A DNA stretch of 64,000 nucleotides from Polyangium jinanense (GTDB lineage Bacteria; Myxococcota; Polyangia; Polyangiales; Polyangiaceae). Location of the stretch: positions 1 through 64,000 of the forward strand of contig NZ_JAGTJJ010000018.1 in assembly GCF_028435365.1 (NCBI RefSeq), given 5' to 3'. Shown one piece after another: positions 28,725-41,420 of the stretch (the stretch's first letter is position 1; each line of letters starts with the position of its first letter). The notes beneath the pieces are model-generated. The model was given only the letters and a program-made list of their open reading frames with translations. It was not told where the DNA came from and did not search any database. Made by a program: the position numbers and the translations under genes.

Positions 28725-30155
28725 ATGTCACACGCAAGCGCGCTCCCCTCGTCCACCACGCGACGCCCCCGCGTGAACTTCCTCCTCCGCGGCGCCCTCG
28801 CCGTGCTCGTCACCGGCGCCGCGGCGCTCGCGGCCTCGGCCGCTTGTCGATCTCTCCTGCCCGCTGAAAACGCGGTCGCGAAGGGCGTGCGCATCGGCGG
28901 CGCCGAGGCCGGTCCGGGGTCGCCGCGCGAGGTGGCCGAGAAGCAAGCACGCGCGCTGCTCGATCGGCGCGTGACGCTCGTCCTCGGCGAAGACGTCGCC
29001 CTCGAAACCTCGCTCGCCGAGCTTGGCGCGACCGTCGACGAGGAGCGGCTCGCGGCGCGGCTTTCGTCCGTGGGCCGCGAAGGAGACCTCTTCACGCGCC
29101 TCGCCGACGCGCTCACCGCGCGGCGCGGCGACGTCTCGGTCCCCGTCTTCGTCACGCTCCCGATCGAGCCCCTCGCCGCCGCGCTGGAGCGCCGCAAGGA
29201 CGAGGCCGACACGCCGCCGCGTGGCGCGCGCCTCGATTTCGCCACGGGAAAACCCACGCCGCACGTCGCCGGAAAATACCTCGACCTGTATGCGGCCGCC
29301 TCGGCGATCGAGCGGGCCGCGCAGAACGGCGAGACGCGCGTGCCCGTCCCGACCTTCGAGATCCTGCCCGACGCGTCGAGCGAGGTCGTCGCGTCGATCG
29401 ACGTCTCCCACGTCGTCACGAAATACGAGACCCGCTTCGGGTACCTCGGCGGACAGGCGAACCGCGCGCAAAACGTCGCGCGCGCCGCGGCCGGCATCGA
29501 CGGCATCGTGCTCCTCCCGGGCGAGATCAAGAGCTTCAACACGGAGGTCGGCGCCCGCACGAAGGAGAATGGCTTCACCACGGCGCCCGAGATCTTCAAG
29601 GGCGAGATGCGCGAGGGCATCGGCGGCGGCACCTGCCAGGTCGCGAGCACGCTGCACGCCGCGGCGTATCTCGGCGGGTTCGAGATCACCGAGCGGATCA
29701 ACCATTCCCGGCCGAGCGGCTACATTCCGATGGGCCTCGACGCCACGGTCGTCTACCCGCACGTCGACCTCAAGCTCAAGAACCCCTACACGTTCCCCGT
29801 CGTCGTGCATGCCGTCGCGGACAAAGGCATTCTCACGATCGAGATCCGCGGCAGCGGCACGCCCGCCGAGGTCGAGTGGTCGAGCGCGACGATCGGCGTC
29901 TCCCCCTACAAACGCAAGATCGAGGAGAGCGCGTATCTGACCGAGGGGCACGTCGTCCTGAAGCAAAAGGGCATTCGTGGCTACCAGATCAAGAAGACCC
30001 GCGTCGTGAAATCGGACGACGGCCGGGCGCGCGTCGAGGAGAAGACCGACGTCTATCCGCCGACCTTCGAGATCCTGATCGTCCCGCCCGGCCTCGATCC
30101 CGCGACGTTACCTCCGTTGCCCGGCGAAGAGGCCCAGCGGCAATCGAGCGGATAA
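28725..30155 (+). CDS. VanW-family protein, membrane-anchored
   Basis: Product of 476 residues. An N-terminal hydrophobic segment (LLRGALAVLVTGAAALAASAAC) may be a signal anchor or lipobox. A beta-rich region with GVRIGGAEAGP is followed by the VanW domain: FGYLGGQANRAQNVARAA, LLPGEIKSFNTEVGARTKENGFTTAP, GGGTCQVASTLHAAAYL and NHSRPSGYIPMGLDATVVYP. The family accompanies glycopeptide resistance and sporulation genes, and its biochemical role is unsettled. No van gene is near. Its 3' end overlaps the convergent phosphoesterase gene by 48 bases. Confidence 0.85.
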   Translation: MSHASALPSSTTRRPRVNFLLRGALAVLVTGAAALAASAACRSLLPAENAVAKGVRIGGAEAGPGSPREVAEKQARALLDRRVTLVLGEDVALETSLAELGATVDEERLAARLSSVGREGDLFTRLADALTARRGDVSVPVFVTLPIEPLAAALERRKDEADTPPRGARLDFATGKPTPHVAGKYLDLYAAASAIERAAQNGETRVPVPTFEILPDASSEVVASIDVSHVVTKYETRFGYLGGQANRAQNVARAAAGIDGIVLLPGEIKSFNTEVGARTKENGFTTAPEIFKGEMREGIGGGTCQVASTLHAAAYLGGFEITERINHSRPSGYIPMGLDATVVYPHVDLKLKNPYTFPVVVHAVADKGILTIEIRGSGTPAEVEWSSATIGVSPYKRKIEESAYLTEGHVVLKQKGIRGYQIKKTRVVKSDDGRARVEEKTDVYPPTFEILIVPPGLDPATLPPLPGEEAQRQSSG

Positions 30156-30890
30156 CCACGCCGCGATCCCGCACCGCTCTTTCGCTTCCAGCGCCGCCAC
30201 TTTCGCCATCGCCAGCGTCGTATCGTACGCGACGCGCCGGAACCACACGACGCCCTGATCCATGTCGAGGATCGCGAACGCCGCGCGTGGATCCGAGTCC
30301 CGCGATTGTCCCACGCTCCCCGGGTTGATCAGGTAATGCGCCCCGTCGTCGAGCTTCACCATCTCGCCCGGCGCCGGCCCGAACGCGCCGTCCCGCGCGC
30401 GCCACGCCCCCGCGTGGTGCGTGTGCCCGAAGAGCCCGATCCGCGTGCCGTACCCGCCGTCCCGAAGCGCGCGCAGGCTCTTCTCCAGCCGCGACAAACT
30501 CGACAGATGCAGATCGTCGTTCGGCACCGGATGCAGCGCCGCGTGAAACAGCAAGAGCTCGGGCGACGCCTTCCGGAGGAGCGGCAGCGACGCGAGCCAA
30601 TCGTGCGCCGGCCCGCCGAGCATCCGCTGCGTCCATCGCATCGCCTGCTGCGCCTTGTGGCCGAAATGCGCCGTGTCCCTGAGCCCGAGCGCGGCGCGAT
30701 CGTGATTGCCCACGACGCACTTCGCCCCGGCCGAAGCGAGCATCCGCGCGCATTCGTTCGGGTTCGCCCCGTATCCCACGACGTCGCCGAGGCACAGGAT
30801 CGTATCGACCCGCTCCACGTCGATCGCCGCGAGCACCGCGGAGAGCGCCTCGAGATTCGCGTGCACGTCCGAAAGGACCGCGTATCTCAC
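30108..30890 (-). CDS. Calcineurin-like metallophosphoesterase (YfcE/DUF2437 type)
   Basis: Product of 260 residues from a GTG that overlaps the ATP-grasp stop (GTGA). All metal motifs are present: LSDVHANLEAL (Asp and His), CLGDVVGYG, CVVGNHDRAAL, and later LFGHTHHAGAW, with an in-between HAALHP. These define small phosphodiesterases or protein phosphatases. Its last 15 codons lie antisense to the end of the VanW gene. Tight coupling to the ATP-grasp gene suggests one pathway, but the substrate cannot be read. Confidence 0.88.
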   Translation of the reverse strand: MRYAVLSDVHANLEALSAVLAAIDVERVDTILCLGDVVGYGANPNECARMLASAGAKCVVGNHDRAALGLRDTAHFGHKAQQAMRWTQRMLGGPAHDWLASLPLLRKASPELLLFHAALHPVPNDDLHLSSLSRLEKSLRALRDGGYGTRIGLFGHTHHAGAWRARDGAFGPAPGEMVKLDDGAHYLINPGSVGQSRDSDPRAAFAILDMDQGVVWFRRVAYDTTLAMAKVAALEAKERCGIAAWLSARLPLGLFAGQRR

Positions 30891-32134
30891 GGCCGACCTG
30901 CCTTCCCCACCCCGCGCAGGGCCCGCTGCCCCACGCGCTTCGCCAGCGTCAGCACGAGCGGCCACGGGTCGTCCCAGGCGAACACGTCGAACACCTTCCG
31001 CCCGCGGTACGAGGCCACGAAGTCGCGGAGCGAGATGGCTCCCGAGGGCCCGTAATCGAGCAAAAACGCCCGCAGATCCTCCTCGACCGAGGCCCAGCGC
31101 AATCCCGGACGAACCGGCCCCGCGCTCGGCAGGGGCAGCCCCGCGAGCTCGGCATACGCGAAGAGCGGCAGGTTCACGCCCGACGCCGCGCCGAGCCGGT
31201 TCCACAGGTTGAACCGCGGATTCGCCTCCAGCAAAAAGAGCTCGCCCGTCTCCGCGTCTCGCTTGAAATCGAGCTTCACCACGCCCACGAGCCCGAGCGC
31301 CCGCACGACCTCGAGCCCGACCCGCGTCACCTCGTCATCTTCGACGATCTCGATGAACGTGCTCTCCCCCGAGCCCGCAGGGTACGTCCGGATCTTCTTG
31401 CCCACGTGATGCGCGACCGGCTCGCCGCGCGCATTCATCCACGCGTGGAAACTCGTGATGTGATCGTCGCCGCCGCGCACGTACCGCTGCACGACGAACG
31501 CCGTCCCCGACCGCTGCATCTGTTCGAGCCGTTTGTCGAGCTCCTCCGGCGTCCGCGCGAAAAGCGCTTTGCGGGGCAAACCGCCTTCCTCCCGAACGGC
31601 CGCGGACTTGCGGAACGACGTGTGGTTCACGGGCTTCAGGGCGCATGGCAGGGAAACGCGCGAAAGCACTTTTTCACGCGTCTTCGCCTCCTCGGACGTC
31701 ACCGTCGCGGGCACGGGCAGGCCGAGCCGCCGCGCGAGCTTGGCGAAGCGCGCCTTGTCGACGAGGTCCTCGATACGCTCGGCCGGCGGCATCAAAAATC
31801 GGTAATGCTGCGCGAGCATCTCCCGGTGCCGCGAGACGCAGAGCAGCATGGAGTCCGTCCCGTAAAACAGCACGGGCCGCCCGCCCGTCCGCTCGGCCAC
31901 GATCCGGAGATCCTCGGTCGTCTGGTCCGGGTTCGTCGCGGGATCCGAGATCACGGCCGTCTGCTCCACGTGCCGCGATCCGAACGTCGGATCCCCGGCG
32001 CGCGTCGAGGCCACGACGAACGGGATCTGCCGTTGGGACAGGCCCGCCTCGGCCGGCGCATTCCCGGAAAAACACCGGACCATGTTGAGATCCCCGCAAA
32101 GGACGGCCGGGACAAGCGATTCTTCGGGCATCAT
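30887..32134 (-). CDS. ATP-grasp carboxylate-amine ligase-like protein
   Basis: Product of 415 residues. Two consecutive ATGs (32134 and 32131) follow GGGGAGGGA; the second has better spacing. The N-terminal third resembles a preATP-grasp domain (AVLCGDLNMVRCF, VVASTRAGDPTF, VLFYGTDSMLLCVS). Residues 140-330 form the ATP-grasp core: DKARFAKLARRLGLPVPATV, PCALKPVNHTSF, GGDDHITSFHAWM and VKLDFKRDAETGELFLLEANPRFNLWNRLG, where LLEANPRF supplies Mg ligands. Such enzymes join a carboxylate to an amine, often in cell-surface or peptide pathways. The flanking acyltransferase and phosphoesterase are co-transcribed. Confidence 0.86.
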   Translation of the reverse strand: MMPEESLVPAVLCGDLNMVRCFSGNAPAEAGLSQRQIPFVVASTRAGDPTFGSRHVEQTAVISDPATNPDQTTEDLRIVAERTGGRPVLFYGTDSMLLCVSRHREMLAQHYRFLMPPAERIEDLVDKARFAKLARRLGLPVPATVTSEEAKTREKVLSRVSLPCALKPVNHTSFRKSAAVREEGGLPRKALFARTPEELDKRLEQMQRSGTAFVVQRYVRGGDDHITSFHAWMNARGEPVAHHVGKKIRTYPAGSGESTFIEIVEDDEVTRVGLEVVRALGLVGVVKLDFKRDAETGELFLLEANPRFNLWNRLGAASGVNLPLFAYAELAGLPLPSAGPVRPGLRWASVEEDLRAFLLDYGPSGAISLRDFVASYRGRKVFDVFAWDDPWPLVLTLAKRVGQRALRGVGKAGRP

Positions 32135-32150
32135 TCCCTCCCCTGTCGAA

Positions 32151-33335
32151 TCAAGGTTCTTCTTCGGCGAACGCTTCCACCGGACGCCGCTTCGTCTCCG
32201 GATGCCCGCGCAGCCGTGCGATCTCGCGCGCGGCGCGCTCGGCATGATCGCGCAAGGCCTCCCGCAGCGTCCGCCGCGCCGCCCGGATCTCCACGATCGG
32301 CCGCGAATCGAGCGCCAGATCCAGCTTGTAACGCACGTCCCCGCCGAGAAAATCGTATTCACGCCGGCCCGCGTCGATCGCCATTCGAATGGCGAGCGCG
32401 TGCGCGGCGATCCCCGGGCGGAGCTTCGGCGGCAAATCGGCGCGCCGGCCGCTCTGATAAAAATACACCTTGTCGTTCCAGACCAGGTTGTACAGAGCCG
32501 CCACCGGCTCACCGCCGGCCCGCAGCACCGAAAGCTCGAGCGCGCCCCGTTCGAGCAGCGCGGGCATGACGGCGTCGTGAAACGCCGTGAATTTCGCCGA
32601 GGAAAACACCCCGCTCCGCTCGTCTTTTTGCCAGCGCGCCTCGTGCAAGGAGACGAGCGTCGCGCGGGCCTCGGAGAGCTCTTCCGGCGTACGCGCGACC
32701 GAGAGGACGAGCTCGCCCCGCCCGAAGCTCTCCAGATCCCGCATCGATCGCCGCACGAGGTACCGCCGCGACGAAGGCAACGCCGCGAGATACGCCTCGA
32801 ACGACCCTGGCAACGTCACGTACGGACTCCGGCCGCGCTCCGTCAGGGTCACCATCAGATCCCTGCGCCCGAGGGCGTCCGCGAGCGCGAAGGGCGCGCG
32901 CTTGCTGCCATCCATCGCCGGGAGCACGACCTCGTCCCAGCCCCCCAAAAGGCCCCCCGCGAGCGCCCGCGCGGCCGCCTCCGCGACGGCCTCCTCCGCG
33001 CCCCGCTCGGCCACGAGCCCGATGTATTCGGAGACGATTTCGTCCGCCTCGTCCTCCCCCGACGGGAGCGATTCGAGCCGCCGGAACGGAAACCCTCGAT
33101 GCCACACGCGCCGCGCGACGAGCGGCAAGAGGCCCACGAGCCGCTCCCCTTGCGTGATCCGTAGCGCACGGAGGCTTCTCCCGTCCGTCCCGCCGAACAC
33201 GCGCCACCAGGCGAGAATCCACAAAGGGGAAAGCGTGGGCTCGTTGCAATCACTGCGATCGAGCAGCGCCTCCCAGTCACCCTGCATTGCCTCGAGCCCG
33301 GCGATATCGGAGACGACGGTGCAGCAGAGTTCCAT
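32151..33335 (-). CDS. GNAT/FemAB-like acyltransferase (BioF2-like)
   Basis: Product of 394 residues from ATG 33335, preceded by GGGAGG. N-terminal WEALLDRSDCNEPTLSPLWILAWWRVFGG, then LVGLLPLVARR and SLPSGEDEADEIVSEYIGLV. In the C-terminal half: LPSSRRYLVRRSMRDLESFG, LHEARWQKDERSGVFSSAKFTAFHD, LSVLRAGGEPVAALYNLVWNDKVYFYQSGRR, and DFLGGDVRYKLDLA. This matches the CelD/BioF2 acetyltransferase-like family found in polysaccharide loci. It is 16 bases upstream of the ATP-grasp gene and heads that three-gene operon. The acyl donor and acceptor are unknown. Confidence 0.85.
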   Translation of the reverse strand: MELCCTVVSDIAGLEAMQGDWEALLDRSDCNEPTLSPLWILAWWRVFGGTDGRSLRALRITQGERLVGLLPLVARRVWHRGFPFRRLESLPSGEDEADEIVSEYIGLVAERGAEEAVAEAAARALAGGLLGGWDEVVLPAMDGSKRAPFALADALGRRDLMVTLTERGRSPYVTLPGSFEAYLAALPSSRRYLVRRSMRDLESFGRGELVLSVARTPEELSEARATLVSLHEARWQKDERSGVFSSAKFTAFHDAVMPALLERGALELSVLRAGGEPVAALYNLVWNDKVYFYQSGRRADLPPKLRPGIAAHALAIRMAIDAGRREYDFLGGDVRYKLDLALDSRPIVEIRAARRTLREALRDHAERAAREIARLRGHPETKRRPVEAFAEEEP

Positions 33336-33802: not shown

Positions 33803-35194
33803 GTGGTCGACAACCTGAAGAAGCGAATATTCTCGCGTGATCGGCTCCCCGACGACATCCGGATCATCCTCCAGAATCAGGAGATGCGTGGCGAGCGGCT
33901 CGTCAACTACGTGAGGAGCGTCTTCTCCGCATTCTCCTTGGGCATGATGTTCGTGTCGTCGGAGGCGCAGGCTCCCGAGGCGCTGCGCACCTTCCGGCTC
34001 GTATTGGGCGCCTGGTTCGCCTACTCGGTGATCGTGTGGCTGCTGCTACGGCGGCGAGATCGCTACTTCAAGTGGCTCACGTACCTCAGCATTACGGTCG
34101 ACATCTCGGCGGTTTGCCTCGGGATGATCGGCGGCCTGCAGAACCATTCGGGGGTCTACGAGGTCTACCGAGCCCCCACGGCGTGGCTCGTCCTCGCCGC
34201 CTTCAACGTGATGGCGGGGCTGCGCTACAGCGTCTTCGCGGGCCTCTACTCGTCGTTCCTCGGCGTGCTCTACGCCGCCGCGATGCTCGTCTACGTGCGC
34301 ATGCGGCTCGATGTCCCCTGGGTGGACAAGGCCGTCTACCTCGGCCCGGGCCTGAACATCGACGAGTGTGTCATGGCCCTCGTGTTCAGCGCGACGAACG
34401 GCGTCTTCGCGGCCGTCATCGCCTGGAACTCGCGCAAGCTCATCCTGCAGGCGGCCACCGACTCGCTCGCGCGCGAGCGGGTCGAGCAGGACAAAGACCG
34501 GCTCGCCAAGTACTTCTCGAAGGACGTCGTCGACCTCGTGCTGAACAACCCCGAGAGCCTCGCCATCGGGGGACAGCGGATGACGGCCACGGTGCTCTTC
34601 GCCGACATCCGCAATTTCACGCAGCTCTCCACGATGATGCAGCCCGAGGAGATCGTGGAGCTCCTGAACCGCTACTTCTCGACGATGGTCGACATCGTCT
34701 TCAAGAACGGCGGCACCCTCGACAAGTTCCTCGGCGACGGCTTGATGGCCCTCTTCGGGGTCCCCTACCCGATCGACCACCCGGAAGAGAGCGCCGTCCG
34801 GACCGCGCTGGAAATGCTCGACGCCCTGCAGGTCATGAACCGCGAGCTCGAAGCCAAAGGCATGCTCCGCCTCGACATCGGCGTCGGCATCAATGCAGGC
34901 CCCGTCGTCGCCGGCAACATCGGCTCCTCGCAGCGCCACGAGTACACCGTCATCGGCGACACGGTGAACCTCGCCGCGCGCCTCGAAGCGCTCAACAAAG
35001 AAACACGCACGCAGATCCTCGTGTCCGCCACCGTGCACCACGCCGTCGAAAAAATCTTCCGCACGCGGCAGCTCGGGCCGCTGCGCATCCGCGGCAAACC
35101 CGAGCCCGTCGAGGTCTTCGCCATCATGCCCTCCGACGTCGTGCCCGAGCCGACGCGTATCTCGCTCCTCCCGCCCTCGACCACCTACCCGTGA
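33803..35194 (+). CDS. Membrane-bound class III adenylate/guanylate cyclase
   Basis: Product of 463 residues from GTG 33803, with GAGAGAG upstream. About six hydrophobic segments fill residues 35-220 (FSAFSLGMMFV, AWFAYSVIVWLLL, LTYLSITVDISAVCLGM, LAAFNVMAGLRYSVFAGLYSSFLGVLYAAAMLVYV). A short coiled-coil leads to the CHD domain: ATVLFADIRNFTQLS with metal Asp268, FLGDGLMALFGVP with Asp312, and GVGINAGPVVAGNIGSSQRHEYTVIGDTVNLAARLE. The active site looks complete, so it should make cAMP or cGMP at the membrane. Its stop overlaps the isoprenoid-synthase-like gene (GTGA). A cNMP-binding protein is encoded 4.6 kb away. Confidence 0.92.
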   Translation: MVDNLKKRIFSRDRLPDDIRIILQNQEMRGERLVNYVRSVFSAFSLGMMFVSSEAQAPEALRTFRLVLGAWFAYSVIVWLLLRRRDRYFKWLTYLSITVDISAVCLGMIGGLQNHSGVYEVYRAPTAWLVLAAFNVMAGLRYSVFAGLYSSFLGVLYAAAMLVYVRMRLDVPWVDKAVYLGPGLNIDECVMALVFSATNGVFAAVIAWNSRKLILQAATDSLARERVEQDKDRLAKYFSKDVVDLVLNNPESLAIGGQRMTATVLFADIRNFTQLSTMMQPEEIVELLNRYFSTMVDIVFKNGGTLDKFLGDGLMALFGVPYPIDHPEESAVRTALEMLDALQVMNRELEAKGMLRLDIGVGINAGPVVAGNIGSSQRHEYTVIGDTVNLAARLEALNKETRTQILVSATVHHAVEKIFRTRQLGPLRIRGKPEPVEVFAIMPSDVVPEPTRISLLPPSTTYP

Positions 35195-36228
35195 ACCTCC
35201 TCGACACCGCCTTCCCGAGTTACCTCGCGAAGCAGGCGGAGATCGACGCGGCCTGGGATCTCTGCGAAAAACGCCTCGCCGGGCTCCCGTCCCCGCTCGA
35301 CACGCTCGCCACGCGATTCCTGCACGCCATCGCGGAAGGAACCCCCTCCCATCGCAGCTACTTCTCCGGCCCGCTCGCGCCGCCGCTGCTCTACATGCCG
35401 CTCTGGCTCGCCGATCGCCTCGCCTCCGAGGGCGCGCTCCCCGCGCGCGCGCAGGCCTCGATCGTGCCCATCCTCGCGGCCACCATGCAGGGCTACTTCT
35501 ACGTGCGCATCCAGGACGATCTGCTCGACGATCCTGCACGCGCCGATCCCGAGCTCCTGCTCCTCGGCAACGCCTGTTTCGCCGGCATGGCCCTCGCCTA
35601 CACGGAAGCCCTCGGCCCGCGCGCCCCGGCCTTCTTCCAGGCCTTTGATCGAGCCATCGCCGCCTTCTCCCGCCTCACGCTCGCCGAGCTGCGTGTCGTT
35701 CGTGGCGAAGGGCCCTACGCCGAGGCGCTCTTCGAAGAGCACGCCGGGAAGGTCGCCTTCGCGCGCGTGCCCCTGCTCGCCATCGCTGCACTCGCGGACG
35801 CGCTTCACCTCGAGGCCTCGATCACGACCCTCGTGGATCGCCTCGGCGTCACGTACGGCCTCGCGAACGACGTGCTCGGCTGGCCCCGTGATCTCCGCGC
35901 AGGTCACCGCACCCACCTGCTCGCCCAGGCGCACCTTTCACGCGCCGACCTGGATCACCTTGCCACGCTCGCGGACGAACACGCGAGGGCCGAGGCCCAC
36001 GAGGCCCTCGCCGAGCGGCTCCGCGTGACGCTTTACGAGGGGATGCTCCTGCACCGTACGATCGAGCGAGCCATCGCGGAACAGGCGCGCGCCGCCGAGG
36101 ACGCCCGAAAGCTCGGCCTCCACGGGTTCGACGTGTACACCGCGGATCGCCTCGCGTGGCTCGGCGCGCTCGACCGGGAGATCCTCGCGATGTCGATGAA
36201 GCGCGCGCTCGGGGCGCGATCCCGCTGA
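35191..36228 (+). CDS. Class I isoprenoid-synthase-like protein
   Basis: Product of 345 residues from a GTG overlapping the cyclase stop. All-helical sequence with a D-rich motif QDDLLDD (Asp109, Asp110, Asp113) and a second motif near Asn226 (NDVLGWPRDLRAGHRTH). The second resembles the NSE/DTE triad with Gly for Ser and Asp for Glu. These are the two Mg-binding sites of class I terpene or polyprenyl synthases. Surrounding helices (YFYVRIQD, ACFAGMALAYTEAL, FEEHAGKVAFARVPLLAIAALA) agree with the fold. Product chain length or terpene skeleton is unknown. Translational coupling to a nucleotide cyclase is unusual. It converges with the next gene with no gap. Confidence 0.78.
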   Translation: MNLLDTAFPSYLAKQAEIDAAWDLCEKRLAGLPSPLDTLATRFLHAIAEGTPSHRSYFSGPLAPPLLYMPLWLADRLASEGALPARAQASIVPILAATMQGYFYVRIQDDLLDDPARADPELLLLGNACFAGMALAYTEALGPRAPAFFQAFDRAIAAFSRLTLAELRVVRGEGPYAEALFEEHAGKVAFARVPLLAIAALADALHLEASITTLVDRLGVTYGLANDVLGWPRDLRAGHRTHLLAQAHLSRADLDHLATLADEHARAEAHEALAERLRVTLYEGMLLHRTIERAIAEQARAAEDARKLGLHGFDVYTADRLAWLGALDREILAMSMKRALGARSR

Positions 36229-38082
36229 TCAGCCACGCGCGAGCCGCGCCCTCGTCCGGACGAGGGCATCGAGGCAAAGCGCGGCCGTGATCGAGCGTGC
36301 CCCGTGCGCCGCGAACGCGAAGTCCTTGCCCGGCGTGCGGTAAAACGGCTCACGCGGAAACAGCCCATCGTAGTCCTGACGGGACGCGAGAAACGTCACG
36401 GCGGGCCAGGGATCAAAGGGCTCTTCTCGCCCACACGCGAGCACGCCGAGCTGGCACGCGGTCGCCATCACGCCCCCGAAGCCGCCGTCGGCCCGCCGCG
36501 AGGCCACGATCTGCCGCTCGATGTCGGTCACGAGCGCGCGCAGATGGGCGCGCGGCGCCGGCTCGCCCGGCGTTTCCTCGGCGACGTTCGCGAGCCGCGC
36601 GAGCAAGTACCGCGCGAACGGAGCGGGGTAGAAATGCACGGCCTTCGCCCCCTCCGCCTCCCAGACCCGCGCGATCCAGGCGAGCGTGCGATCGAAGTAC
36701 CCCTCGGGCAGGGGCGCATGGGCCTCCGCGAGCCCGATCATCGCGTTCGCCGCCACCGCGACGCACCGCGATCCGAGCCACTTCGGCGCTCCCTCGGACA
36801 TGGGCTCGTGCAGGTGCCGCTCGAGCCACACCGCCATCGCCCCATCCTCGGCCGTGTTGCGCACGAGCACCTCGATCGGCCAGGCGAGCGCCTGTGTCCG
36901 CGCGGCCCCGTCCACCGAGCGTGCGATGAGCTGAAGCGCGAGCCCTAGATCGTCTGCGTCCGGCGGGATGCCCGCGAAACCTTCGAAGTAGCGGAACCCG
37001 TCGACCCCGCGCTGCGCGACGAGCGCCTCGACACGCGGCGTGATGTCCTCGCCCGCCCCCGAGAGCGCGAGCAGGCAAAGCCCCACCGGGAACAGCCGCG
37101 CCACGTACGTCGCGTCGAACGGCCCTCCCCAGCGCTGGATCTCCCACGACTCGCGCAGCTCGGGGTCGGCGGCGAGGGCGTCCCGGGCGAGCGTGATGGC
37201 CCGGTCGAGCGCCTCGGCGGGGGTGGGTCCTCGGGGCGTGAACCCGAACAGGCGGGCGGCCCGCGACGCACGCGTGATCTGCGCGGTCGTCAACTCCACG
37301 AGGGCCCGCGTGTCCTCTCCGTCGAGCCCCTCGTGCACCTCGTTTGCCCAGGCGGCGCACGTCGCTTCGAGCGGCGCCGCGAGCCTCGGGTCTCCGACGA
37401 GCCGAAGCAGCGGCGTCCGGTCTGGCGCGGGTTTGGCCGCCTCGGCGATCGCCTGATCGAATGCGGGACCGAGCTCCCCTCTGCCCTGCGCGATCGAGCC
37501 GAGGAGCTGCGGCCGGGGCGCGCTCGCGCCGGCGAAGGTGAGCGAGCGGGCTTCGAGCGCGAGGCGAACGAGCCTCCCGAGGGCGCCTGCTGCGCGACAG
37601 AGGCCGGGCTCGTCCGGACGACCGACCAGGGCGGGCAGGAGGTGGGACAAACCGTAGTCTGCGAGCGGCGAGGACGGCAGGATCACGGCCGCGTCGCCGG
37701 CCTCCGCGAGGGCATCCCCCACGGCGACGATCACGGAATCGATGACCTCACCCATCGAGGCATCGATCGAGCGGCGGGCCCCCTCGCGTGATGCGAGCAG
37801 AAGCCATGCGGAGGGGGAAAACGGCGCCACCGCGTCCTCGGCCGGCATGGGATCGTGCGGCGCGGAAAAACCTGCCGCGGCGTGGATGGCTGCGGCGAGG
37901 AGCAGGAAGGTACGAACGAGGGGGGCGTGTGCTTCGGGCCTATGTTCGTCGGCGATGCGGCCGAGCAGCGTCGCCGCTGCGCGAAGCGCGGCTTCTTCGT
38001 GGCCGAGCGTCTGCAGGGAGGCCCTGGCCCGCTCGGCCTCGGCGCGAGGCAAACCCTTCCAGACAGGGTTCAGCGCATCCAC
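36229..38082 (-). CDS. Class II terpene-cyclase/prenyltransferase-fold protein with DADD motif
   Basis: About 617 residues from GTG 38082 (MDALNPVWKGL); the start is uncertain, with no strong ribosome site, and a longer frame would run into the upstream peptide gene. The protein is alpha-helical throughout. PPDADDLGLALQL (Asp375-Ala-Asp377-Asp378) is the DxDD general-acid motif of class II cyclases. Near the C-terminus, RRADGGFGGV and LASRQDYDGLF resemble QW/prenyltransferase repeats, then KDFAFAAHGARSITAALCLDAL. A terpenoid or squalene-hopene-cyclase-like fold is therefore proposed. The adjacent class I gene makes a two-enzyme terpenoid route plausible. Alternative: a prenyltransferase-fold protein acting on the nearby peptide. 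Confidence 0.7.
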   Translation of the reverse strand: MDALNPVWKGLPRAEAERARASLQTLGHEEAALRAAATLLGRIADEHRPEAHAPLVRTFLLLAAAIHAAAGFSAPHDPMPAEDAVAPFSPSAWLLLASREGARRSIDASMGEVIDSVIVAVGDALAEAGDAAVILPSSPLADYGLSHLLPALVGRPDEPGLCRAAGALGRLVRLALEARSLTFAGASAPRPQLLGSIAQGRGELGPAFDQAIAEAAKPAPDRTPLLRLVGDPRLAAPLEATCAAWANEVHEGLDGEDTRALVELTTAQITRASRAARLFGFTPRGPTPAEALDRAITLARDALAADPELRESWEIQRWGGPFDATYVARLFPVGLCLLALSGAGEDITPRVEALVAQRGVDGFRYFEGFAGIPPDADDLGLALQLIARSVDGAARTQALAWPIEVLVRNTAEDGAMAVWLERHLHEPMSEGAPKWLGSRCVAVAANAMIGLAEAHAPLPEGYFDRTLAWIARVWEAEGAKAVHFYPAPFARYLLARLANVAEETPGEPAPRAHLRALVTDIERQIVASRRADGGFGGVMATACQLGVLACGREEPFDPWPAVTFLASRQDYDGLFPREPFYRTPGKDFAFAAHGARSITAALCLDALVRTRARLARG

Positions 38083-38191
38083 GAAGCAAGGATCCGAAGA
38101 AGAACGTTGGGGCGCGTGGGGTCCGATGGACCGCCTCGCATGCGGGGCTGCGCGACGTCGCGCGTCCCCGCGCGACCGTTTTGGGAACCGC

Positions 38192-38410
38192 TCAGCTCGC
38201 GGCCTTGCGGTTGGCCATCTGGCTTTCGAGGCCCTGCGCCATCGCATTCACCTCATCGGGATTGGCGTTCTTGATGGCTTCGATCACTTCGGGAACGGCT
38301 TCGTATCCCTCGGCGGTCAGCGTGGCTTCGGGTGCCGCGAGCAACTTCTTCCGGAACTCCACATCCGTCAGCGCGCGACCGATGAGCTCTTCAACGCTCT
38401 TCTTCGACAT
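38192..38410 (-). CDS. RiPP precursor-like peptide (NHLP/Franean1_4349-like)
   Basis: Product of 72 residues. The ATG at 38410 has GAGG 7 bases upstream. The sequence opens MSKKSVEELIGRALTDVEFR, then KLLAAPEATLTAEGYEAVPEV, EAIKNANPDEVNAMAQG and a tail ending in KAAS. The VE..GRAL.D.EFR..LL..PE pattern is that of nitrile-hydratase-leader-like (NHLP clan) precursors, including Franean1_4349-type RiPPs. There is no Cys and few Ser/Thr in the tail, so the modification type cannot be told. It is upstream of the terpene-cyclase-like gene on the same strand and divergent from the PqqD/M50 protease. Confidence 0.75.
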   Translation of the reverse strand: MSKKSVEELIGRALTDVEFRKKLLAAPEATLTAEGYEAVPEVIEAIKNANPDEVNAMAQGLESQMANRKAAS

Positions 38411-38582
38411 GACAACACCTCACGTTTGCTCCGCGGCCCGAATCAATGCTGGACGCTGGAGATCGAATGTACAATCGGATACAGCGGGATCGACCCTGCT
38501 GTCAAGGAGTGGCGGGCGCGGATCTTTGCCCAGCAGGGCCTCCATGGTAGTCTGGGGCTTACGGGCCGTTGTGCCGGAGCTC

Positions 38583-39830
38583 ATGAGCGACAAAGCGAAG
38601 CCCGAGCTCGAGCTCCTCATTCGGTCCCGACCCGGCGGCTCTGGATCCGCCACTGGATCCGGCGGTTCGAGCGGCGGCTTCGTCACGCGGCGGTACGTCG
38701 CGAACCAGGTCGCGCTTACGGTGAGGCCTCGCCGCATCCCGGAGGAGAGCTACGAAATCCAGGCGCAGTCGAGGAAGGATCGCAAGCTTTTTTACGTCAT
38801 CCGGCAGCTCGAGGCCGACAAATACCTCTTCCTGAACGAAGAAGAGTATTTCCTCTGGCAGAAGATGGACGGTCTCCACACGCTGCGCGACGTCGCGACG
38901 GCGTACTTCCTCAAGTTCGGATCGTTCGACTTCCGCGTCATCCAACGGTTCCTCTCTCGCGCCCGCGAGAACAAGCTGATCGTCATTCCGCAGACCGATC
39001 TCGTCCGGCGCTCGCTCGCGGACGAGCCCGTGTCGATGCGCTCGCATTTTCTCACGAAGCTCCGCGGGCTCGACCTGCGTTTGCCGAACGTCGATCAAAA
39101 GCTCGCGGTCCTTTACCAGCGGATGCGTGTCTTCTTCACGCGCCCCGCGTTCGCGTGTTACGCGCTCCTGCTCGTGCTCGGCGGCGTGGCGTTCGTAAAG
39201 CAGTCGGGCCGCGGAGCGGGCGCCGAGGTCCTGCACGCGGGGCACGCGCTGCTCGTGCCCGTCTTCCTGCTCTTCCACGTCATGGCCGTCGTGGTGCACG
39301 AGCTCGCGCACGCGCTCGCGTGCAAGCACTTCGGCCGCGAAGTGAAGGCGTTTGGCTTCACCTTCATGAACCGGCTCATGCCGAGCGTGTATGCGGACGT
39401 GACGGACATGTGGATGTCGACCCGCAAGGCGCGTATGGCGGTGAGCTTCGCGGGCCCCCTCTCGGGCCTGCTCCTCGGCAGCGCGAGCGCGATCCTCGCG
39501 TGGATCCTGCCTGCCGGCATCCCCTCGTCGTTCTTCTGGTTCGTCGGGATCACGATCGTCGCGTTCTCGCTCGGCAGCCTCTACCCTTGCCTCTTCATCG
39601 AGTCCGACGGCTACCACATCCTGAGCGATTGGCTCCGCATGCCCGCCCTGCGCGAGCACAGCCGCCGTGTCCTGCGCGACAAGCTTCGCGATATCGTACG
39701 CGCCCGTAGAACGCGGCCCATGACGAGCGACGAACGCACGTACTTCCTGTATGGATTGGCTTCGGTCGTCAGTCTCACCGCCGTCGCCACCACGATCGTG
39801 GTGATCGCCGCGCACCGCCTGACGCGCTAA
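38583..39830 (+). CDS. PqqD-like domain fused to M50-type membrane zinc protease
   Basis: Product of 415 residues from ATG 38583 with GGAG upstream. A Ser/Gly-rich N-terminus leads to a winged-helix PqqD-like domain (about 60-145: LEADKYLFLNEEEYFLWQKMDGLHTLRDVATAYF, RENKLIVIPQTD). In RiPP systems such domains bind leader peptides. Six or so membrane helices follow, with the zinc motif HELAH (His239, Glu240, His243) in a hydrophobic segment, and YPCLFIESDGYHILSDWL carrying the likely third Asp ligand. This is the arrangement of RiPP-associated M50 peptidases and exporters. It diverges from the precursor-like gene with 172 bp between them, and the cNMP-binding gene follows 16 bases after. Confidence 0.85.
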   Translation: MSDKAKPELELLIRSRPGGSGSATGSGGSSGGFVTRRYVANQVALTVRPRRIPEESYEIQAQSRKDRKLFYVIRQLEADKYLFLNEEEYFLWQKMDGLHTLRDVATAYFLKFGSFDFRVIQRFLSRARENKLIVIPQTDLVRRSLADEPVSMRSHFLTKLRGLDLRLPNVDQKLAVLYQRMRVFFTRPAFACYALLLVLGGVAFVKQSGRGAGAEVLHAGHALLVPVFLLFHVMAVVVHELAHALACKHFGREVKAFGFTFMNRLMPSVYADVTDMWMSTRKARMAVSFAGPLSGLLLGSASAILAWILPAGIPSSFFWFVGITIVAFSLGSLYPCLFIESDGYHILSDWLRMPALREHSRRVLRDKLRDIVRARRTRPMTSDERTYFLYGLASVVSLTAVATTIVVIAAHRLTR

Positions 39831-39846
39831 TCCGAGGCCAGACCTG

Positions 39847-40368
39847 ATGAAGTTCACCCCGCGACCGCTCCGCAAGGACCAAATCAAGGACTGCGCCCGC
39901 ATGCTCCGGCGCGTCACCTTGTTCTCCGCCTGGTCCCCCGACGAGATCGAGGAGTTTGCCGCGCACGTCCAGCTCTTGCCCTTCCCCTCGCAGGAGGTCG
40001 TGCTCTGGGAGGGCGACGCCGGCGACGTGCTCTACATCATCGCCGAGGGCAGCGTCGTCGTGTCGCGCCGCCTGAAGGGCGACGTCGAGACCGTCATCTG
40101 CCGCTTGCACGCGGGCGACTTCTTCGGCGAGCTCGACGTCATCGACGACCAGTCGGCCTCGGCGAACGTGCAGACCGAGACGCAGTGCCTCTTCTACACG
40201 ATCGATCGCGACACGCTCTACCGCGAGCTCGAGGCGAACCCGCGCGTCTATTCGAAGTTCCTGCTCGCCCTCCTCAAGGAGGTCGCCAAGCGCCTGCGCA
40301 CCACGAACCAGCGGCTCATCGACGCGATCCTCTGGGGCATCGACGCGACGTCGCTCGACACGGGCTGA
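39847..40368 (+). CDS. Cyclic nucleotide-binding domain protein
   Basis: Product of 173 residues. Residues 15-145 form a CAP-family cNMP-binding beta-roll: LFSAWSPDEIEEFAAHVQLLPFPSQEVVLWEGDAGDVLYIIAEGSVVV, then the phosphate-binding cassette AGDFFGELDVIDDQSASANVQTET with FGEL, although the usual RSA is QSAS-A. The C-terminal helix (LLALLKEVAKRLRTTNQRLID) is not followed by a DNA-binding HTH, so it is a stand-alone sensor. Co-transcription with the protease, and the membrane cyclase at 33803, suggest cAMP/cGMP control of this locus. Confidence 0.9.
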   Translation: MKFTPRPLRKDQIKDCARMLRRVTLFSAWSPDEIEEFAAHVQLLPFPSQEVVLWEGDAGDVLYIIAEGSVVVSRRLKGDVETVICRLHAGDFFGELDVIDDQSASANVQTETQCLFYTIDRDTLYRELEANPRVYSKFLLALLKEVAKRLRTTNQRLIDAILWGIDATSLDTG

Positions 40369-40372
40369 TCGT

Positions 40373-41251
40373 TCAGAGACGAACGGTCCCGAGCGCGGAC
40401 GAACGGCTGCTCGGCGCGCTCTCCTGCCCGCGCCGAAAGCGCAAGAGGAGGAACGTGATGAGCACGGTCGAGGCCGCGACCAGCACGCCCCCTTCGCTCG
40501 CCCAGAGCGGCGCGTGTTCGCCCGTGGTCGAGGCGCCGAAGAACGAGACCACGATTGCGTTCCACGCCGCGTGCATCACCACGGGTGGCCAGACGCTCCC
40601 CGTGTCGAGCCGGAGCCTCGCCGCGAAATAGCTTTGCCCGCACATGGACACGACGAAGAGCAGAAGCGCAAGGAGCGGCGACGGGCTCGGGTTGTAGTGC
40701 CCGCTCAGGATGAGCGGCGCGTGCCACAACCCCCACACGACGCCGGTCACGAGCGCCGGATACGGCACGCCCGCGTCGATGAGGCGCGGCAGGAGGTAGC
40801 CACGCCAGCCGATCTCCTCGCCGATCGCAAGCACCGCCATCGCGGCCGGGCCGATCGTGAGCGCGATGATGCACCCCGCGACGAACCGCTCGCCGGGTGT
40901 GCCCCCGGGGATGGGGAACCCGAGCGGGTGCACCGCCGCGGGCTCGAACGCGGCGATGCCCGTGCCCCACGCGAGCCCATACGCAGGCAAGGCGATCACC
41001 ACCGGATAGATCAGCGCCGGCACCATGGACCACGCCACGCGTCGGTCGAAGCGGAACGATACGTCGCCAAACCCCTCGCGCAGGACGAACCGCGCGACCA
41101 CGGACGCGAGGCAGGGGACCCATACGAATGGGAGGAACCTGCTCGGCGCGAGGCCGTGCAGCGCAATGTCCACCTGGAACGGCGCGCTCGCGAGGAGGAG
41201 AACCCCGAAGTAGATCGCGAGCCCTCTGCGCGCGCGCCGAACCTTGTCCAT
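40373..41251 (-). CDS. CPBP-family intramembrane metalloprotease
   Basis: Product of 292 residues from ATG 41251; a GTG four codons upstream is possible. About eight hydrophobic helices. The CPBP/Abi signature GEEIGWRGYLLPRL supplies the catalytic Glu-Glu and Arg. Later motifs are GVVWGLWHAPLIL (HxxP) and PPVVMHAAWNAIV (His-Asn), all in order. Relatives include Rce1 CAAX proteases and bacteriocin self-immunity proteins. It converges with the cNMP-binding gene with a 4-base gap. A link to the RiPP-like locus is possible but not shown. Confidence 0.9.
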   Translation of the reverse strand: MDKVRRARRGLAIYFGVLLLASAPFQVDIALHGLAPSRFLPFVWVPCLASVVARFVLREGFGDVSFRFDRRVAWSMVPALIYPVVIALPAYGLAWGTGIAAFEPAAVHPLGFPIPGGTPGERFVAGCIIALTIGPAAMAVLAIGEEIGWRGYLLPRLIDAGVPYPALVTGVVWGLWHAPLILSGHYNPSPSPLLALLLFVVSMCGQSYFAARLRLDTGSVWPPVVMHAAWNAIVVSFFGASTTGEHAPLWASEGGVLVAASTVLITFLLLRFRRGQESAPSSRSSALGTVRL

Positions 41252-41420
41252 CGCCTCGTGCACCGACGGCGAGCTTATACGGGGTCGAGCCTCGCGGATA
41301 GGGACAAGGCAGACCTCGCGCGGTGTTCCGTCGCGGGCCGGGGCGTCGGCGTCCCGACACCTCTGTGGTATCGCGTGTTTGTCCGGCGCATCCGGGAAGG
41401 CGGCCCGGGGACGCATCGGC

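Follow-up and report, generated by a model that had tools for sequence, protein, structure and literature searches.

A myxobacterial gene module that may pair an isoprenoid-modified ribosomal peptide with a membrane adenylate cyclase

Why should a membrane nucleotide cyclase be encoded beside two proteins of terpenoid-enzyme type and a small ribosomal peptide? The question is raised by a locus at 33803..40368 of a 64,000-nucleotide stretch from Polyangium jinanense (contig NZ_JAGTJJ010000018.1), the whole of which is called the window here. The locus has six genes: CYC, for a membrane class III nucleotide cyclase, and ISO, for a protein like the trans-isoprenyl-diphosphate synthases (trans-IDS), both on the plus strand; DADD, for a 617-amino-acid (aa) protein with a class II terpene-cyclase domain, and PEP, for a 72-aa peptide precursor, both on the minus strand; and M50, for an intramembrane metalloprotease, and CNB, for a stand-alone protein of cyclic-nucleotide-binding fold, on the plus strand and divergent from PEP. 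An earlier note, made from the letters of this DNA, had read the same six genes at the same coordinates, with a GTGA coupling of CYC to ISO, the DADD motif and the family of the precursor, and all of this is borne out by coordinates, profiles and models. The answer that we tentatively prefer, with doubt weighing slightly more than belief, is that the locus is a self-contained peptide-signal module resembling ComQXP and PalQXP, in which a prenylated and partly terpene-cyclised peptide has a membrane adenylate cyclase as its receptor.

Across Polyangium genomes the locus evolves in the manner of a pheromone locus. In comQXP pherotypes the signal and the sensor diversify and the output is conserved, and this pattern of divergent candidate signal and sensor with conserved output is found here. 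Identities to the window were tabulated for five of the six other Polyangium loci, the nearly identical L030 being omitted, and the synonymous divergence (dS) for three of the six, with the neighbouring CPBP gene omitted. The flanking genes of the five loci are 82-96% identical to those of the window. In L032-L035 the CYC membrane domain is 61-62% identical, ISO 55-60%, DADD 47-51%, PEP 62-71% and M50 72-81%, whereas the CYC catalytic domain is 88-95% and CNB 87-99% identical. In L031, the flanks of which are the most distant (82-89%), the CYC membrane domain is 92% identical, ISO 84%, DADD 79% and PEP 96%. Between the window and L035 the dS is 0.15-0.19 in the flanks, 0.14 in CNB, 0.30 in the CYC catalytic domain and 0.47 in M50, and it rises to 0.76 in the CYC membrane domain, 0.79 in ISO, 0.92 in DADD and 1.21 in PEP, the maximum lying in the middle of the locus; L033 is alike. 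The diverging parts and the flanks give trees that reject each other (approximately unbiased test, p 4e-37 and 2e-5). There are three old allele classes at one chromosomal site that do not track the flanks, namely the window with L030 and L031, L033 with L035, and L032 with L034, and the last residue of PEP by class is S, A and F. As a control, two other membrane cyclases (two paralogue groups, compared between Polyangium sp. 15x6, G001, and three genomes) are 77-95% identical in their N-terminal parts and 88-96% in their catalytic parts. The earlier note had the system switched by cAMP or cGMP, which is probably the wrong direction: the CYC membrane domain diverges with the biosynthetic genes and the catalytic domain does not, and therefore a receptor of the product fits better than an upstream switch.

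The genes are also linked outside Polyangium. The genome searches were centred on G001, a close relative of the window (95% identity over DADD), and covered 183 genomes of the order and 377 genomes from the phylum; the best few first-look candidates per genome were scored, so that misses are possible. The order yielded DADD in 16 genomes, ISO in 11 and Os1348-type peptides in 34; the phylum yielded ISO in 39 genomes (E<=0.001) and DADD in 35, many of the DADD matches being weak. All 12 genomes with a strong DADD match (G001, G149-G153 and G163-G168) have a peptide within about 1 kb of DADD and an ISO gene; G004 has a good DADD match with neither peptide nor ISO, and the DADD matches of G097, G103 and G176 are weak. 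From the phylum 37 stretches were fetched and mapped with profiles that were partly built from loci later scored (the ISO alignment A2 took 37 of 41 matches and the DADD alignment A1 19 of 20). The resulting count, in which we set the limits of distance and score and several stretches stop at contig ends, has 45 ISO loci with a match above 60 bits, the window and the near-identical L030 included. PEP is found no more than 2.5 kb from ISO in 31 of these, full-length CYC within 6 kb in 27 and both in 26, while an M50 homologue is within 2.4 kb in 22 and DADD within 3.5 kb in 17. A CNB homologue is near ISO in 11 loci, which are the seven Polyangium-type ones (window included) and L096, L097, L100 and L106, and the complete set of six genes is found outside Polyangium in L096 and L106, the ISO of L106 having been missed by the gene caller and found by profile. 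Thus, CYC, ISO and PEP are the core, M50 is frequent, and DADD and CNB are part-time members. The gene order of the window recurs in the six other Polyangium-type loci, in L036-L040 it is ISO-PEP-DADD-CYC on one strand, and in DADD-less loci such as L092 it is CYC-ISO-PEP-M50; since the order varies between lineages, the linkage is more than plain synteny.

Chance linkage would predict that the CYC membrane domain is found away from ISO as well, and as a control a profile of this domain (A6, 17 sequences) was run against the 377 genomes. It matched 30 of them at E<=0.001, of which 22 also pass E<1e-20, a cut that was picked after the lists had been seen. ISO is present at E<1e-20 in 20 of the 22 (its total is 32) and on the same contig in 19 (Fisher p = 5.9e-23). 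In G374 the membrane domain and ISO are on different contigs; here CYC (L144:70-2236) is at a contig end and is preceded by a stretch like the small protein of L114 (ALVGRFVRDSAF), with ISO on other contigs. G322 has the domain and lacks ISO. Its contig starts partway through CYC, and the gene after it resembles that found after CYC in L096 and L106, two loci with ISO on the upstream side; a contig break is therefore the likely explanation. Homologues of these genes thus co-occur elsewhere well above chance, both in the count of 45 loci and in the control of 377 genomes, and the link between the peptide and a terpenoid step that the earlier note had drawn gains strong support from this conservation, though not from chemistry.

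CYC (33803..35194, plus strand, 463 aa) is a class III cyclase by its match to PF00211 (103 bits), its catalytic residues and its N-terminal membrane helices. The membrane part spans about residues 35-210 and has about six helices; six windows of a hydropathy scan, some of them overlapping, are over the threshold at residues 64-207, and the helix count is approximate. The catalytic domain (about residues 225-450) has the metal Asp and NxxxR together with the Lys and Asp that are typical of adenylate cyclases. R38, D100, G117 and E120 of the membrane domain are invariant, and N114 and S116 nearly so, in 17 sequences, and the CYC of the L036-L040 lineage is 41% identical to that of the window over nearly the full length. 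In the nine searched genomes with this gene, CYC is the sole strong full-length match among the 10-18 cyclase matches listed per genome; among these, a weak reach into the membrane part is seen in G163 (q45-441) and G166 (q89-445), at E about 1e-29, and the remaining listed cyclase matches of the second-lineage genomes begin at residue 190 at the earliest. We propose that CYC is the receptor for the product of the locus. In several DADD-less loci a large protein is encoded immediately upstream of CYC (L092:1774-5775, also in L097 and L104), and in L092, the one that was scanned, it is a fusion of a Ser/Thr kinase, a class III cyclase, an AAA domain and TPR.

ISO (35191..36228, plus strand, 345 aa) starts with a GTG at 35191 that overlaps the TGA stop of CYC at 35192-35194. 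No Pfam or NCBIfam family matches it; its AlphaFold2 model (pLDDT 94.5) has the prenyl-diphosphate-synthase fold, which places it with the trans-IDS, and its profile has a single weak match among PDB sequences, a farnesyl diphosphate synthase (E 0.043). The first Asp-rich motif is kept (RIQDDLLDD) and the second is degenerate, NDVLGWPRD replacing DDxxD, so that ISO, with NDVLG as its second motif, does not have both DDxxD motifs of the chain-elongating prenyl diphosphate synthases. We propose that it is a peptide prenyltransferase that would act on PEP. The residue before the second motif is Gly223 in the window and Gly also in the ISO of loci with Tyr-tailed peptides, Gln in L036-L040 and mostly Gln in the other rows of the motif table, which is without L030, L107 and L110. 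The NDxxGxxxD of the Polyangium ISO also resembles the NSE metal motif of terpene synthases; an NSE-type terpene synthase was considered as the general reading of ISO and rejected, the motif being gone in L036-L040, where ADLLH stands. In three other loci (L115:7071-11551, L117:7300-12193 and L119:6568-9764) an ISO-like domain lies within a longer protein, which is followed by a protein of 84-95 aa that has no clear family match in L115 and L117. The longer protein of L117, the one of the three that was scanned, carries a radical SAM domain by Pfam, and a histidine-kinase domain protein follows the small protein in L115 and L117, as found by Pfam in the neighbours scanned there. This arrangement may be a variant of the signalling principle proposed here that is built on a histidine kinase, and it fits with ISO-type enzymes travelling with membrane signalling proteins.

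DADD (36229..38082, minus strand, GTG start) likewise has no match in Pfam or NCBIfam. Its predicted model shows a C-terminal (alpha/alpha)6 class II terpene-cyclase fold with an invariant DxD, the DADD motif being at residues 375-378, in agreement with the terpenoid-cyclase fold that had been ascribed to it. In a profile search of PDB sequences the matches included MstE (E 0.033) and drimenol synthase (E 0.16); two rows of TPR proteins outscored both and were taken as chance. Residues 1-283 form a helical domain, which is possibly a decayed ISO-like domain: for the window protein this is suggested by hhalign against ISO (E 4e-4, probability 14%, with nothing found when narrower alignments were used), and by HMMER an ISO-like N-domain was found in one of 24 DADD proteins, the L041 homologue. 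DADD homologues without ISO or peptide nearby (L042:9098-11032 and L043:6854-8755) adjoin Lys/Ala-rich small proteins and represent other uses of the cyclase family. At L107:7430-10403 the ISO and DADD matches are in pieces beside an intact peptide and cyclase, through decay of the genes or an error of assembly.

PEP (38192..38410, minus strand) belongs to the Os1348/Franean1_4349 family of the NHLP clan, with scores above the curated cut-offs of PF14407 (58.1 vs 48 bits) and NF038399 (61.7 vs 40 bits), and it is encoded beside candidate modifying enzymes and a protease (ISO, DADD and M50) that are kept with it in other genomes, as is typical of the precursor of a ribosomally synthesized and post-translationally modified peptide (RiPP). 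No paper on 'Franean1_4349' was found in the open-licence PMC literature. The tail is ...MANRKAAS, only a very short stretch following the conserved domain. Where DADD, ISO and PEP occur together (17 loci) the tails are R[KR]AAx, R[ED]GGVGM or, in L041, KSQAAT, and neither Tyr nor Trp is among the final nine residues. Of the 14 loci that have ISO and PEP and lack DADD, 10 show a Tyr third from the end (for example RGDYLA), L046 ends in QWC, and an Arg stands 5-7 residues before the end in 29 of 33 related peptides. The PEP of the L036-L040 lineage closely resembles proteins named Sorangium. At L046:5027-14961 the QWC-tailed peptide, which is of Os1348 type, adjoins the ISO homologue; upstream lie a radical SAM/SPASM protein and pieces resembling cyclase and AAA/TPR proteins, a kinase that carries a cyclic-nucleotide-binding domain is also present, and L046 is a possible Trp-acceptor relative. 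Many of the distant Os1348-family peptides P0161-P0192, one of them from Chloroflexus islandicus, have Trp at or near the end (...SHW, ...GWS, ...EWK) and are candidates for Trp prenylation. Other Os1348-type peptides, ending in KRRAAC, share a different context (L048:9496-13248 and L049:1047-4694), in which a large protein partly similar to CNB lies beside the peptide, another association of this peptide family with a domain of cyclic-nucleotide type.

M50 (start 38571 or 38583, end 39830, plus strand) has the motif HELAH and matches PF02163 at 30.2-31.5 bits vs a cut-off of 27.2; it also reaches 118 bits with NF041824, the daptide protease, under the cut-off of 300. Its N-terminal part is PqqD-like, with no Pfam match in the window protein and 20.0 bits to PF05402, under the cut-off of 23.4, in the L092 orthologue. 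We propose that M50 is the leader protease. It was not found in G163-G167, and G168 has one weak match on another contig. CNB (39847..40368, plus strand, 173 aa, PF00027 67 bits) is the proposed effector, its ligand binding being uncertain. The statement of the earlier note that the cyclic-nucleotide parts are not usual companions of such genes is too strong: NCBIfam has families for TOMM kinase/cyclases and for cyclic-nucleotide-binding proteins of bacteriocin transport, both of which were matched far below their cut-offs. Next to CNB a CPBP/Rce1-like intramembrane protease is encoded (40373..41263, minus strand, PF02517 60 bits), which is a possible accessory of Polyangium only, as a homologue is present in all six other Polyangium-type loci and in none of the other fetched loci (E 1e-3). 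It is 70-82% identical in L032-L035 vs 89-96% for the genes beyond and so may lie in the diverging block. Upstream of the module a minus-strand trio (30108-33335; calcineurin-like phosphoesterase, ATP-grasp-like protein and GNAT protein of Acetyltransf_6) is present in all Polyangium-type loci; an extension of the cluster into these genes was rejected, the trio being conserved to the same degree as the flanks. Scans of the window for Rfam families and tRNAs found nothing.

Put together, PEP would be the ribosomal precursor, made up of a leader of NHLP type and a short tail at the C-terminus, onto which ISO, with its first diphosphate-binding motif kept and the normal second one lost, would put an isoprenyl group. 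The class II domain of DADD would cyclise this group or provide a donor that is cyclised beforehand, the PqqD-like/M50 protease would bind the leader and free the product by cleavage at the membrane, and the CYC membrane domain would detect the product and thereby control cAMP synthesis, CNB likely being downstream. The scheme would parallel ComQ-ComX-ComP and PalQ-PalX-PalP with an adenylate cyclase replacing the histidine kinase. What the sequences show is the gene set, the predicted folds, the motifs, the linkage and the behaviour of the allele classes; prenylation of the peptide, terpene cyclisation, proteolysis, secretion and sensing are inferred. In a more specific form, which we consider possible and yet rather doubtful, this is a widespread form of myxobacterial quorum sensing, in which a six-helix class III adenylate cyclase has as its natural ligand a ribosomal peptide that bears an isoprenoid, linear or terpene-cyclised, on a residue other than Trp, and turns this pheromone directly into a cAMP output; the acceptor would be the Tyr near the C-terminus in most DADD-less loci, and another residue or the C-terminus itself in the DADD loci.

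Several observations weigh against a module of this kind. The chief of them concerns the acceptor: the window PEP has no Trp or Cys and no evident acceptor residue, and its tail is unlike a classic core peptide. According to a review (PMC13290415), Trp is the target of every characterised trans-IDS-like enzyme, and all of them have a Gln preceding the second motif, a combination that the window does not show. The lack of Trp and Cys in PEP together with Gly223 in ISO is thus the main weak point and speaks against a simple transfer of PalQ/ComQ chemistry. As for the linkage, 14 of the 45 ISO loci have no PEP match; some of these have other small proteins beside ISO, those of L114 and L118 being sub-threshold to the family, and the rest have nothing recognisable. 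L036-L040 have no M50 or CNB gene nearby, and G290 has PEP-DADD-CYC, while neither the 641 bases that precede PEP nor the rest of that genome gave anything like ISO, which makes it, as far as seen, a true exception. The Fisher p overstates independence, the counted loci and genomes being related. In some pairs of other cyclases, too, the membrane part outpaces the catalytic one in divergence (77 vs 96%), although by a smaller gap than the 61-62 vs 88-95% seen here. In CNB the Arg of the phosphate cassette, the position of which we presume and which we take to be canonical for cAMP binding, is replaced by Ala in all nine aligned proteins, and its place in the circuit is therefore uncertain. Finally, no exporter or transporter gene recurs with the module in the locus gene tables, in which part of the neighbours is annotated.

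The want of an obvious acceptor in the window peptide would be of no consequence if a free terpenoid were the signal. DADD and ISO would then act as a class II/class I pair of the kind usual for labdane-type terpenoids, with the peptide as a scaffold or regulator that is not consumed and CYC sensing the terpenoid, and the likeness of NDxxGxxxD in the Polyangium ISO to the NSE motif would fall into place. However, that motif is not retained in L036-L040 (ADLLH), 28 of the 45 ISO loci have no DADD within 3.5 kb, the peptide tails are conserved in type, and M50, which is near ISO in 22 of the 45 loci, would have no obvious role without peptide processing. We regard this explanation as unlikely, even though the membrane domains of mammalian cyclases have been reported to be lipid receptors (PMC11606603).

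It is also conceivable that the lipidated peptide is a weapon, an antimicrobial RiPP the divergence of which reflects an arms race, and that the cyclase and CNB merely regulate its production. CPBP proteases are common near bacteriocins, and antibiotic activity drops on the loss of Os1348, the prototype of the family (PMC7726476). A plain regulator would not be expected to diverge with the biosynthetic genes in its membrane domain and stay conserved in its catalytic half, however, and the gene tables, with their partial annotation of neighbours, show no recurring transporter gene, and we consider this quite improbable. The same lack of an exporter, and a peptide that is short and mostly leader-like, would suit an intracellular switch in which ISO prenylates a small protein for docking at the membrane and CYC is regulated in the same cell with no secretion; X-ray analysis has shown Os1348 to be a folded dimer (PMC7726476). 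A released signal accounts better for the presence of a protease and for allele classes that do not track the flanks, and of the explanations weighed this is the one to which we give the least credence.

The ligand of the membrane domains of six-helix class III cyclases has long been an open question, and this locus makes it testable in one place, as a CYC-type domain in many Myxococcota adjoins enzymes that possibly make its ligand and diverges in step with them. Were the peptide signal real, prenylated and terpene-cyclised RiPPs would gain a non-Trp acceptor and cAMP would join the outputs of peptide quorum sensing. To our knowledge it would also be the first case of a bacterial adenylate cyclase whose membrane domain has a natural signal made by neighbouring genes. 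In the open-licence PMC literature we found no description of an adenylate cyclase coupled to a prenylated or terpene-cyclised RiPP.

How, then, does the locus stand beside known systems? We know of no peptide partner of MstE or of other monodomain class II terpene cyclases, and by their PDB titles the structures of MstE hold geranylgeranyl- or farnesyl-dihydroxybenzoate, unlike DADD with its peptide linkage. Diverging allele classes are a feature of the ComQXP polymorphism and a likeness to this locus, whereas ComQ-ComX-ComP is not known to have an NHLP leader, a terpene cyclase or a PqqD/M50 protease. ComQXP consists of a peptide, a prenyltransferase and a membrane histidine kinase; here the candidate receptor is a cyclase. 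Like the locus, ComQ-ComX-ComP of Bacillus has a trans-IDS-like enzyme with the first Asp-rich motif and a degenerate second one, a short peptide and an adjacent membrane receptor, and unlike it an internal Trp as acceptor and a histidine kinase as output (PMC10853753, PMC13290415). PalQ-PalX-PalP of Paenibacillus alvei is similar in that its trans-IDS-like enzyme prenylates a precursor of NHLP type, PalX, with a signalling gene, that of a histidine kinase, adjacent in a small cluster; it differs in its C-terminal Trp acceptor and its histidine kinase, where the locus has a class III cyclase and in addition a class II cyclase and M50 (PMC10853753). Genes of GNAT, HEXXH-motif and SagB type are found in the Os1348 cluster, and the excerpted text mentions no isoprenoid enzyme (PMC7726476). 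In Rv1625c-type cyclases, as in CYC, a membrane domain that is a proposed receptor is joined to a class III catalytic domain; the six-helix anchor of Rv1625c can be replaced by the Vibrio CAI-1 receptor and has been called an orphan receptor, whereas CYC sits beside genes that may make its ligand (PMC4821796). A terpenoid step on a peptide, part of what the earlier note had held would be new, is already known from ChrPC and NctPC: ChrPC uses a trans-IDS-like domain for prenylation of a ribosomal peptide and another domain for cyclisation of the attached group, and in NctPC the cyclase domain has been likened to MstE (PMC13290415). These enzymes resemble the locus in joining a prenyltransferase and a terpene-cyclase domain on a ribosomal peptide, and the N-domain of DADD is maybe a decayed transferase fused to a cyclase, as L041 suggests; compared by description, the locus differs in its separate, active-looking transferase, its peptide without Trp and its encoded candidate cyclase receptor. 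Isoprenoid-modified RiPPs and the ComQXP and PalQXP systems are thus already known, and what is new in this locus is that the class II cyclase is a protein of its own, that the peptide lacks Trp and, most of all, that the partner is an adenylate cyclase.

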